A stretch of 64,000 bases of DNA, from positions 67,001-131,000 of the forward strand of contig CABZCX010000001.1 of the NCBI GenBank assembly GCA_902524345.1. Reading direction: 5' to 3'. The position numbers and the translations under genes are program-made. This DNA comes from an uncultured Pelagibacteraceae bacterium (GTDB lineage: Bacteria > Pseudomonadota > Alphaproteobacteria > Pelagibacterales > Pelagibacteraceae). The notes under the pieces were generated by a model. The model worked only from the letters and a program-made list of their open reading frames with translations. It was not told the origin of the DNA and searched no databases. Positions 45,049 to 48,376 of this stretch are shown piece by piece; position 1 is the first letter of the stretch, and each line of letters starts with the position of its first letter.

Positions 45049-45374
45049 TGACATATTTGGTTAATGATAAATGTATTAAATGTAAGCTGACTGATTGTGT
45101 TGATGTTTGCCCAGTTGATTGCTTTTATGAAGGTAAAAATATGCTTGTAATTAAACCCGATGAGTGTATAGATTGTGGCGTTTGTGAACCTGAATGTCCA
45201 GTGGATGCAATTCAAGCTGATACAGAACCAGGAAGTGACAAATGGCTAGAAATCAATAAAAAATATTCTGAAATCTGGCCAAATATAAGCGAAAAAAAAG
45301 ATCCACCATCGGATCATGAAAAATATAGAGATGAGCAAGATAAGTTTGAAAAATATTTTAAAGAGAACATTTAA
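45048..45374 (+). CDS. fdxA: Seven-iron ferredoxin
   Basis: A 108-residue electron carrier. [18 protein letters not shown] and [16 protein letters not shown] supply the cysteines for one 3Fe-4S and one 4Fe-4S cluster, and the C-terminal tail ([17 protein letters not shown]) matches the FdxA group. It sits between the TerB-like gene and carD. The carD frame starts inside its 3' end. Confidence 0.94.
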
Positions 45375-46200
45375 AAATAAATCCAAAAAAACAAAAAAGG
45401 TGACTAAAACAAAAGTTATCAAAAGTATAAAAAAACCAGCCAAAAAAATTAAAAAATTAGTAAAACCCAAATCAAAGATAATTACTCAAAAAAAACAAAC
45501 TAAAATTAGTAAAAAAAATGTTGAGTTAAAAACAGAAAACTTAAGGATTTCTAAAGGAACTGAGGTTAAGCCTGAAATAAAAAAGGTAAATAAACAAGCG
45601 ACTGAAAAGAGAGAGTATAAAGTAAAAGATCATGTTGTTTATCCTAAACATGGTGTTGGACAGATTTCTGAATTTAAAAAAATTAGTATTGGTGGAATAG
45701 ATGTTGAAACATACGTTATAAAATTTGAAAAAGATAAAGCTGACGGTATGGTTCCAGTCAACAAGCAATCTCACCTTCGACCATTAGCTACAATTAATCA
45801 AGTCAACAAATGTATTTCAATTTTAAAGAGTAAACCAAAAATTAAAAGATCCATGTGGAGTAGGAGAGCCCAAGAATATGAAGCTAAAATTTCCTCAGGT
45901 AAAATTTATGAATTGGCTGAAGTGGTAAGAGATTTAAATAAAGGTGACGACTTAATGGTCGATCAATCCTACAGCGAAAGACAACTTTTTGAAAAAGCTT
46001 ACGAACGAATTTTATCTGAATTTAAAATAATATTAAATATATCACTGGAAGATACTCAAAAAAAATTAGATAAAGCGCTCAAAAGAAACTTAGATAGCCA
46101 AAATAAACAAGAGACTAAAACAATTAAAGGTTCTGAATCTGAAATTCAAGATGAGGAGCCAATTTCAGAAAATGATAATGATGAGCCAATAGAAGAATAA
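45316..46200 (+). CDS. carD: CarD/CdnL-family RNA-polymerase-binding regulator
   Basis: A 294-residue protein. The CarD N-domain is clear at about 97-155 ([17 protein letters not shown]...[17 protein letters not shown]), followed by the helical DNA-contact domain. Before it lie about 90 residues extremely rich in lysine ([24 protein letters not shown] in part), and after it an acidic tail ([10 protein letters not shown]-like). CdnL proteins are usually about 160-190 residues, so both ends are extensions. The start is uncertain: ATG at 45316 or 45331 lies inside fdxA, and a GTG at 45400 would avoid the overlap. A terminator follows. Confidence 0.88.
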
Positions 46201-46205
46201 AAAAA

Positions 46206-46243
46206 AAAACGCCTCTCACACATAACGTTATGAGAAGCGTTTT
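46206..46243. terminator. Bidirectional intrinsic terminator between carD and the Lys/Arg-rich peptide gene
   Basis: The inverted repeat AAAACGC-c-TCTCA / TGAGA-a-GCGTTTT has a 12-base loop. On the plus strand it has one C-A mismatch and a run of five T, ending carD. On the minus strand the mismatch becomes a U-G pair and the stem is followed by nine T, a stronger signal, ending the small basic gene 20 bases after its stop. It is the only convincing intrinsic terminator I found in the window. Confidence 0.78.
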
Positions 46244-46263
46244 TAATAAAGAATACTAAGTTC

Positions 46264-46341
46264 TTATCTTCTTCTTCTTTTTTTTGCTTTTTTCTTAGCT
46301 TTTTTCTTAGCCTTCTTTGCTTTTTTTCTTCTTTTAGCCAT
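46264..46341 (-). CDS. 25-residue Lys/Arg-rich peptide gene
   Basis: The minus strand has ATG at 46341 and TAA at 46264-46266, encoding MAKRRKKAKKAKKKAKKKAK followed by KRRRR. It is about 76% Lys/Arg plus Ala, with AKK repeats as in histone H1 tails. Support for a real gene comes from its surroundings: a GGAG ribosome binding site 7 bases upstream (rare in this window), a TTGACA-containing promoter-like site, a perfect 9-bp hairpin at the predicted 5' end and a strong terminator. In length and charge it recalls tiny ribosomal proteins such as eukaryotic L41 or Thermus Thx, but homology is not claimed. Likely roles are rRNA or nucleoid binding. Confidence 0.65.
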   Translation of the reverse strand: MAKRRKKAKKAKKKAKKKAKKRRRR

Positions 46342-46363
46342 CTTTAGCTCCCTTTTTAGTTAA

Positions 46364-46384
46364 ACGAATCAAAAATTGATTCGT
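46364..46384 (-). promoter_or_regulatory. Perfect 9-bp hairpin in the leader of the Lys/Arg-rich peptide gene
   Basis: ACGAATCAA-AAA-TTGATTCGT is a perfect inverted repeat with a 3-base loop. It would form about 3 bases after the predicted transcription start and end 22 bases before the ATG, leaving the ribosome binding site free. A hairpin at the very 5' end often stabilises mRNA. It could also be a dimeric protein site. Confidence 0.55.
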
Positions 46385-46393
46385 AATTACTTA

Positions 46394-46422
46394 TTTTTAT
46401 TTTTTTATACACGTTATGTCAA
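46394..46422 (-). promoter_or_regulatory. Candidate sigma-70-type promoter of the Lys/Arg-rich peptide gene
   Basis: The minus strand reads TTGACA (46417-46422), a 17-base spacer, then TAAAAA (46394-46399). The -35 is perfect and the -10 matches 4 of 6. The predicted start near 46387 gives a leader of about 45 bases. The remaining stretch up to the acyl-CoA ligase stop (46423-46539) is AT-rich with nothing else visible. Confidence 0.45.
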
Positions 46423-46539: not shown

Positions 46540-48285
46540 CTAATAAAGTTTTTCTAAATCTTCTTTATATTTCTCTAAAATTTTTTTTCTTTTTAGTTTT
46601 AAAGTGGGTGTTAACATTCCATTTTCAATTGTAAATTCTTCTTTAACTAATTTAAATTTTTTAACTTTTTCAACTAAAGATAAAGTTTTATTTAAATTTT
46701 CTAAATAAATTTCTATTTCTTTCTTATTTTCATTACTTTCACTTACAATTAATGCAACGAGATATGTTTTTTTATCTCCATATACAAAGCTTTGTTTAAT
46801 TTTTTCATTTAAACATAATAAGTTTTCAATTTTGGAAGGTGATATGTTATCTCCACCAAGATTGACGATTATTTCTTTTTTTCTATCTGTTATTTTTAAA
46901 TTTCCCTCTTTTGTAATTTCCCCTATATCTCCTGTATGTAACCAGCCATCTTTAATAACCTCATCAGTTTCTTTCTTTTTATTCCAGTAACCAAGCATGA
47001 CATTTTCTCCTTTAACTAAAATTTCACCATCATCAGCAATTTTTACTTGATTAGTTTTAAAAGGAGGGCCCACTGTTTCAATCTTAATTTTTCCAGGAAT
47101 ATTACAACTAACAACAGGAGAGGCTTCAGTTAATCCATATCCTTGTAAAGTTGGTAATCCTATAGAATTCAAAAATTCACCAATTTTTTGATCTAAAGCA
47201 CCCCCTCCAGAAACAAAAGCCTTTAGTTTGCCACCAAATTGATTCTTAATTTTTCTTCTTACCAATTTTTCACAGAAAATATTAATAAAATTTTCTTTCA
47301 AACTAAATTTACCTTTATTTAGTTTTTTAATCCCAAGTGAGATGGTAGATGAAATCAGCTTCCTCTTAAGACCTTTTTGTTTTGTGAAATTCATATAAAT
47401 TTTACTGTATAAATTTTGATAAAATCTAGGGACTGCTGTCATTATTGTTGGTTTTGCAACTGACATATTAGATAATAATTTTTCCAAACTTTCAGCATAA
47501 TAAACTTTTGCTCCAAGTGAAATTTGAACAAATTGAACTGCATGTTCATATGAATGAGATAATGGTAACCACGTTAGAAAAACTGGTTTTTCATTTTTAA
47601 ATAAAGGTACTAAAATTTCTAATGCTCCCTCGCAATTAGATAAAATTCCTCCATGACTCAACATTACTCCTTTTGGGTTTCCAGTTGTACCAGAAGTATA
47701 AATAATACACGCAAGATCATTCCTTTTTAGATTGGTGTTTATAGAATGTTGAATTTTAAAGTTCTGATCAATCATTATAGTTTGCCAGTCAGTAAAAATT
47801 TTTTGAAAAAAATCTAATTCTTGATCAAAGCTATCCATAGAAATAACATTAATGTCTTTTGTTAAATATTTTTTAATTTTATCGAATTGTTCTTGAGTAG
47901 AGACAATACAAACTTTTGGCATACAATCTTTAATTATATATTCATAATCCTTATCAGAATAAGTTGTAAATAAAGGTACGGTCACTCCACCAGCATTCAT
48001 AATTGATAAATCAGAAATTAGCCACTCAGGTCGATTTTCCGAAAGCAACAAACACCTATCTCCCCTAGATATTATCTTTTTTAAATAAGTAGTTAATATC
48101 CTAATTTGTCCATCAACTACTCTCCACGAATAATTAGTAGGTTGTCTTAATTCTGGCAACTCGTGTTCTCTTGATTTTAAATTTGTCAAAAAAGCAGACT
48201 CATTCATACTAAATTTTTTTGGTATATTTTTTTCAGATGTTTTAAAAAAAAGTTCTACAAGACTATTGATATTTTTTAATTCCAT
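46540..48285 (-). CDS. AMP-forming long-chain acyl-CoA ligase
   Basis: A 581-residue adenylate-forming enzyme that activates fatty acids. The P-loop is CIIYTSGTTGNPKGVMLSHGG, then WLPLSHSYEH, GYGLTEASPVVSC, GWLHTGDIGEI and the hinge region KITDRKKEIIVNLGGDNISP. The ORF track starts at 48321, but those first 12 residues are read from the tRNA-Leu gene; the ATG at 48285 (MELKNINSLVELFF) fits the family. Only six bases (TTTTTT) separate the tRNA CCA end from this ATG, so there is no room for a normal ribosome binding site. Confidence 0.9.
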   Translation of the reverse strand: MELKNINSLVELFFKTSEKNIPKKFSMNESAFLTNLKSREHELPELRQPTNYSWRVVDGQIRILTTYLKKIISRGDRCLLLSENRPEWLISDLSIMNAGGVTVPLFTTYSDKDYEYIIKDCMPKVCIVSTQEQFDKIKKYLTKDINVISMDSFDQELDFFQKIFTDWQTIMIDQNFKIQHSINTNLKRNDLACIIYTSGTTGNPKGVMLSHGGILSNCEGALEILVPLFKNEKPVFLTWLPLSHSYEHAVQFVQISLGAKVYYAESLEKLLSNMSVAKPTIMTAVPRFYQNLYSKIYMNFTKQKGLKRKLISSTISLGIKKLNKGKFSLKENFINIFCEKLVRRKIKNQFGGKLKAFVSGGGALDQKIGEFLNSIGLPTLQGYGLTEASPVVSCNIPGKIKIETVGPPFKTNQVKIADDGEILVKGENVMLGYWNKKKETDEVIKDGWLHTGDIGEITKEGNLKITDRKKEIIVNLGGDNISPSKIENLLCLNEKIKQSFVYGDKKTYLVALIVSESNENKKEIEIYLENLNKTLSLVEKVKKFKLVKEEFTIENGMLTPTLKLKRKKILEKYKEDLEKLY

Positions 48286-48291
48286 AAAAAA

Positions 48292-48376
48292 TGGTGGGCG
48301 AAGAGAGAATCGAACTCTCACTTCTTGCGAAACACGATTTTGAGTCGTGCGCGTCTACCAGTTCCGCCATTCGCCC
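48292..48376 (-). tRNA. tRNA-Leu(CAA)
   Basis: The minus strand folds as a type II tRNA. The acceptor GGGCGAA pairs with TTCGCCC, A is the discriminator with encoded CCA, the anticodon stem CACGA/TCGTG encloses CTCAAAA (anticodon CAA), there is a long variable arm, and the T arm has AGTTCGATTCT. Its 3' end is six bases from the start of the acyl-CoA ligase on the same strand. Confidence 0.96.

Follow-up and report, generated by a model that had tools for sequence, protein, structure and literature searches.

A tiny basic protein gene beside carD in Pelagibacteraceae and its proposed repression by the trans-encoded RNA RF01814

We analysed a 64,000-nucleotide stretch of DNA from an uncultured Pelagibacteraceae bacterium (hereafter the window) and propose, with a probability of roughly three in four, that it carries the gene for a very small, H1-like protein that binds nucleic acid, and that a trans-acting small RNA, RF01814, represses translation of this gene by lying over its Shine-Dalgarno (SD) sequence and AUG. 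What is new here is the complementarity between the ribosome-binding site (RBS) of this gene and the RF01814 loop, which makes the gene the proposed target of the RNA.

The peptide gene and its expression signals

The coding sequence runs on the minus strand from the ATG at 46341 to the TAA at 46264 (46264-46341) and specifies MAKRRKKAKKAKKKAKKKAKKRRRR, a peptide of 25 residues of which 20 are Lys or Arg, four are Ala and one is Met. Upstream on the same strand, a -35 box TTGACA (46417-46422) and a -10 region TAAAAA (46394-46399), the latter inside AAAAAAATAAAAATA, are separated by a 17-nt spacer and form a predicted promoter. A few bases downstream of the expected transcription start lies a perfect 9-bp hairpin with a 3-nt loop, ACGAATCAA-TTT-TTGATTCGT (46364-46384, minus strand), followed by the SD sequence GGGAG (46348-46352, minus strand). 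The unit closes with an intrinsic terminator (about 46207-46243, minus strand; stem AACGCTTCTCA/TGAGAGGCGTT plus a T run) common to the convergent carD gene (45316-46200, plus strand), which is recognized by Pfam matches to CarD_C and CarD_TRCF_RID and serves as the synteny anchor. The terminator stem, with G.U/A-U changes between loci, is conserved in the consensus fold. The signals listed by the initial annotation, namely TTGACA/17/TAAAAA, the 9-bp hairpin, the RBS and the terminator, are thus all present.

With CarD as the anchor, we gathered 80 loci from Pelagibacteraceae. In 79 of them this same ORF lies 59-63 bp past carD, and the contig of the 80th stops before the ORF position. Among 75 distinct aligned loci the -35 box is invariant, and AAAAAAATAAAAATA (near-invariant in close loci), CGAATCA...TGATTCG, AGGGAGCTAAAGATG and the terminator stem are nearly so, while the DNA upstream of the -35 box drifts. 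Single-base codon changes, counted over 64 distinct coding sequences representing 36 peptides, comprise 51 synonymous and 20 nonsynonymous ones, where about 19% synonymous changes would be expected by chance. No frameshift was seen among these 64 sequences, and the differences in ORF length are codon-sized. Given the synonymous excess and the intact frame, 46264-46341 is, by this comparative evidence, a real, selected protein gene. The initial annotation had suggested a search for a short RK-rich ORF with hairpin and RBS beside carD in related genomes, and had named frameshifts, or free drift between terminator and hairpin, as grounds for giving up the gene; the first was found in 79 loci and the second did not appear. 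Its view of the locus as a self-contained transcription unit, too short for most gene callers, also holds, the promoter-like signals, hairpin, RBS and terminator being near-invariant across loci. At least three unnamed small ORFs are reported in SAR11 strain HIMB5 (PMC6429828), and the peptide gene might be among them.

The GAATC arm of the 5' hairpin is kept in every SAR11 leader checked. Its 3' arm varies with pairing retained (GATTC, GATTT with a G.U pair, and longer stems in genera g2-g4), and the loop length differs between leaders. Such variation favours an RNA hairpin over a DNA palindrome or CcrM site. The second GANTC site is lost in several genera in which the pairing persists. Most simply, this 5'-terminal hairpin, kept in all genera examined, is an mRNA stabiliser, and since it opens with GAATC in all leaders checked, it may also have a role in methylation. 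CcrM-type GANTC sites number 129 in the window, against 169 expected from base composition. Also conserved is a 3' untranslated stretch, CTTAGTATTCTTTA (46247-46260, minus strand), between the stop codon and the terminator. A long-range pairing of this motif with codons 8-12 appears in one fold and is absent from the consensus fold, and we discarded it. Farther upstream, the listed GTG start of an acyl-CoA synthetase-like ORF (46540-48321, minus strand) overlaps a tRNA gene (48295-48376, minus strand); translation of this ORF probably begins at an ATG further along (MELKNINSL...).

Complementarity between the ribosome-binding site and RF01814

At every position, the SD/AUG stretch GGGAGCUAAAGAUGGCUAA is complementary to a hairpin loop of the 'rhtB sRNA' (Rfam RF01814). 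The putative target, GGGAGCTAAAGATGGCTAA (46334-46352, minus strand), spans the SD, the start codon and codons 2-3. The 20-mer at the RBS has a single second copy in the genome, which lies outside the window on a different contig (G000:C2, about 89328-89347), and a pattern search of the 1.08-Mb window genome, the one genome on which the uniqueness of the target rests, retrieved no sites within three mismatches besides that pair. Read on the opposite strand, the second copy makes up the loop of the hairpin GATAGTCCTT-CTTAGCCATCTTTAGCTCCCGGTTTT-TAAGGACTATC, after which comes a U run. We considered whether this copy could be a paralogous peptide gene and rejected the idea: conservation of its ORF does not extend beyond the hairpin, and the sequence is that of the RF01814 antisense strand. 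The predicted loop-RBS duplex has an energy of -36.2 kcal/mol, compared with -22.6 for the next-best site in the 64-kb window and a mean of -7.8. Two points weigh against the proposed control: in the window genome the RBS is predicted to be about half paired (mean unpaired 0.49), and in the MPKK clade a C.C mismatch at codon 2 leaves a 14-bp pairing core. The initial annotation had read this leader as expression signals alone; the signals stand, and the SD/AUG stretch is in addition likely to be the binding site of the trans-encoded RF01814, which its reader had not seen.

The partner element in the window genome (L116, 1473-1554, plus strand) scores 79 bits under the RF01814 covariance model, for which the gathering threshold is 55. 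The family was described as the 'rhtB associated element', a hairpin near rhtB, in a paper that gave neither target nor function (PMC2704228); the element of the window genome shares its hairpin, loop and genomic place, and the Lys/Arg-rich gene next to carD is here proposed as its target. It was found in 293 of 399 genomes of the genus, including 54 of the 57 that are at least 90% complete. Nearly all of 39 aligned elements carry an extended -10 (TGnTATAAT-like) 6-8 nt before GATAGTCC, the stem covaries (GATAGT/ACTATC, GATAGC/GCTGTC, CCT/AGG and CCA/TGG), and a U run stands behind the hairpin in only part of the genomes, so that the 3' end of the RNA can be placed only tentatively. In L004 and L116, some 17 nt upstream of the extended -10, there is a conserved AATGCA box that is not of the TTGACA-type -35 kind; this box could be a regulator site that times production of the RNA.

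A divergent DUF2805 gene stands beside the element in most loci, while the gene downstream varies between RhtB, ProC and a porin-like protein, with an SDR gene on the opposite strand in L107. With such variable neighbours, the element looks like a free-standing, trans-acting RNA, which fits these arrangements better than a leader does. At L231, L174, L180, L189 and L250 the element is followed by a porin-like secreted protein, at a distance of about 185-225 nt, and by ProC, in place of RhtB; in some genomes, the stretch beside DUF2805 has thus been exchanged while the RNA remained. In other SAR11 genera, no such RNA was found beside DUF2805 and no RF01814 match exceeded the cut-off, though the peptide persists there; a pattern search in these genera retrieved peptide genes and scattered sites only. 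As far as seen, control by the RNA is confined to the window's genus. Within open-licence papers, a body of literature lacking many journals, we found none naming an RF01814 target or the carD-side peptide.

Covariation in trans lends the pairing further support. At the peptide RBS, part of the genus has GGGAGCTAAA-A-ATGG instead of GGGAGCTAAA-G-ATGG, and this G-to-A change is matched by a C-to-U change in the loop in 16 of 16 A-type genomes with both sites read (13 from one survey, plus G229, G245 and G270). In 15 further genomes the original pair is kept, and mixed combinations number zero. Two more genomes with an A-type RBS (G512 and G343) have an element match of neither type, and G464 (59% complete) has an A-type element but no carD locus among those compared. 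A CarD+FadD tree holding 29 genomes with both sites known (14 AA, 15 GG, none mixed) requires by parsimony five changes per site, also after collapsing support under 80, and thus at least five concerted changes. The chance that five changes placed at random on 104 branches would hit the same five is near 1e-8, a rough figure. Pairing is also kept in G166, where an A-to-G change at the RBS gives a G.U pair, and in G125, where a change in the loop does so. An RBS A opposite a loop C costs about 5-6 kcal/mol, whereas an RBS G opposite a loop U is a tolerated wobble and hence offers a route for the concerted change. Since the two loci lie on separate contigs of the window genome (C1 and C2) and far apart in the single-contig genome G013, co-inheritance by linkage does not explain the covariation; gene conversion is by inference unlikely, as it would have to copy tracts of only about 20 bp between unlinked loci. 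The element is thus encoded away from its proposed target, with conserved and covarying complementarity, as a trans-acting antisense RNA should be, and pairing between the RF01814 loop and the peptide RBS is strongly supported by these sequence comparisons.

Nature of the peptide and proposed mode of control

In other SAR11 genera, too, almost every CarD locus sampled has a Lys/Arg-rich ORF at the same position, with lengths of 21-24 residues in three genera and 31-58 in g3, g4 and g2; the shortest version, of 20 residues, comes from one g1 genome. A second SAR11 family has Lys/Ala/Pro-rich versions of 40-91 residues (MEELKVIFAKARKKAKKKAAPKKKRKAAKRKPAKKKAAPKK...), the long forms of which resemble histone-H1-type tails in their repetitive Lys/Ala/Pro composition. 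On the strength of this resemblance, we take the peptide for a reduced form within an H1-like family that spans SAR11, and we infer that it binds DNA rather than the ribosome. Pfam and NCBIfam models, ribosomal ones included, gave no meaningful match for four versions of 25-85 residues, and no curated family model places the peptide with H1-like/HctA or with bTHX/bS22. A PDB search returned just one weak match (E 0.52). Outside SAR11, none of 28 alphaproteobacterial loci has a Lys/Arg-rich ORF beside carD; a match at L305 was set aside, as it looks like the Lys-rich N-terminal part of CarD itself. The CarD of the window likewise has an N-terminal Lys-rich extension of about 100 residues (45316-45630, plus strand) ahead of the RNA-polymerase-interacting domain, comparable to the K/A-rich stretch ahead of CarD at L305, and this extension and the adjoining peptide are alike in composition.

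In the proposed mechanism, a sigma-70-type promoter would start an mRNA of about 180 nt that opens with the protective hairpin and ends at the terminator shared with carD. RF01814, a short hairpin RNA presumably transcribed from its own extended -10 promoter (TGnTATAAT), would pair in the cell through its loop with 14-19 nt that take in the SD, the AUG and codons 2-3, thereby blocking 30S binding and initiation. The peptide, when made, would bind nucleic acid. There is moderate evidence that the outcome would be repression rather than activation.

Several other readings need to be weighed against this one. That the RNA is nothing but a cis element of rhtB, a leader or terminator whose match to the RBS is incidental or reflects a generic start region, agrees with its original description as an element before rhtB (PMC2704228); in many genomes the rhtB ATG indeed lies 8-12 nt past the hairpin, the 3' arm of which contains AAGGA. 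We nevertheless regard it as very improbable, because complementarity between loop and peptide RBS persists where the gene after the element changes, because the concerted G-to-A changes recur on the tree, and because the genome holds just two such sites. The same SD-like AAGGA lies in the hairpin stem and could be opened by loop pairing, so the action might run in reverse, with the peptide mRNA titrating or opening the rhtB RNA and altering its stability or, where present, rhtB translation. This is improbable in our judgement, although less so than a purely cis role: the pairing covers the peptide SD and AUG exactly, which is the usual geometry of a repressor, and in many genomes the gene behind the element is not rhtB.

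Two further readings concern the product rather than the direction of control. The locus could be a non-coding RNA or a low-complexity accident, its ORF a by-product of A-rich DNA, as the genome is A-rich and Lys codons are AAA and AAG; the synonymous excess, the codon-sized indels, the invariant SD and start codon and the presence across genera leave this hardly credible. With the same gene and the same control by the RNA, the peptide could instead be a mini-protein in or on the ribosome, such as bTHX or bS22. Its size and charge, the constitutive-looking promoter with a strong SD, and lengths of 20-25 residues in several genera speak for such a role, which we consider unlikely but worth keeping in view, given that none of the ribosomal models matched and that a drift in length from 20 to 91 residues in Lys/Ala/Pro repeats suits an H1-like tail better. 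The initial annotation had left the choice between a tiny ribosomal and a nucleoid protein undecided, and the nucleoid side is favoured by the longer versions of other SAR11 genera, which look H1-like. Our preferred reading therefore remains an H1-like protein repressed in trans by RF01814.

Significance and relation to known systems

SAR11 bacteria are the commonest in the ocean and among the most abundant cells on Earth, and few of their regulators are known. The present analysis gives an orphan Rfam RNA, present in almost every near-complete genome of the genus, a proposed target backed by covariation in trans, and adds an order-wide gene for a basic protein that most gene callers would miss for its shortness. 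Should the peptide coat DNA, it would have a bearing on chromosome packing in minimal cells; should it be ribosomal, it would be a new ribosomal mini-protein.

Bacterial histone-H1-like proteins (HctA/Hc1, BpH1 and AlgP-type tails) are Lys/Ala/Pro-rich, of low complexity and built of length-variable repeats. The likeness to them is closest in the 40-91-residue versions of the second SAR11 family; the window peptide, unlike these proteins, has just 25 residues, consists of K, R and A apart from its initial Met, and matches no family model. The ribosomal mini-proteins bTHX and bS22 (SRA), of 25-45 residues, are strongly basic. The peptide is likewise short and basic but differs from them in composition and length drift, and again no model matches.

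The closest parallel to the proposed control is IhtA of Chlamydia, a trans-acting RNA whose loop occludes the start codon of the mRNA for the H1-like protein HctA (PMC4355289, PMC3469542). In both cases the hairpin loop of a trans-encoded RNA would lie over the start codon of an mRNA for a small, very basic, Lys-rich H1-like protein, a label that for the SAR11 peptide rests on composition. However, IhtA has three stem-loops and a functional contact of 6-7 nt without the SD, whereas RF01814 has one hairpin and a predicted contact of 14-19 nt that includes it. We therefore describe the two systems as analogous and do not claim homology. Tentatively, and at somewhat less than even odds, the pair could form a SAR11 compaction switch, in which perhaps the smallest known H1-like protein (20-35 residues) has its SD and start codon covered by a dedicated RNA and is released when the promoter of that RNA shuts off, for example at starvation or growth arrest; it would then be an independently evolved counterpart of IhtA-HctA in a free-living, streamlined bacterium.
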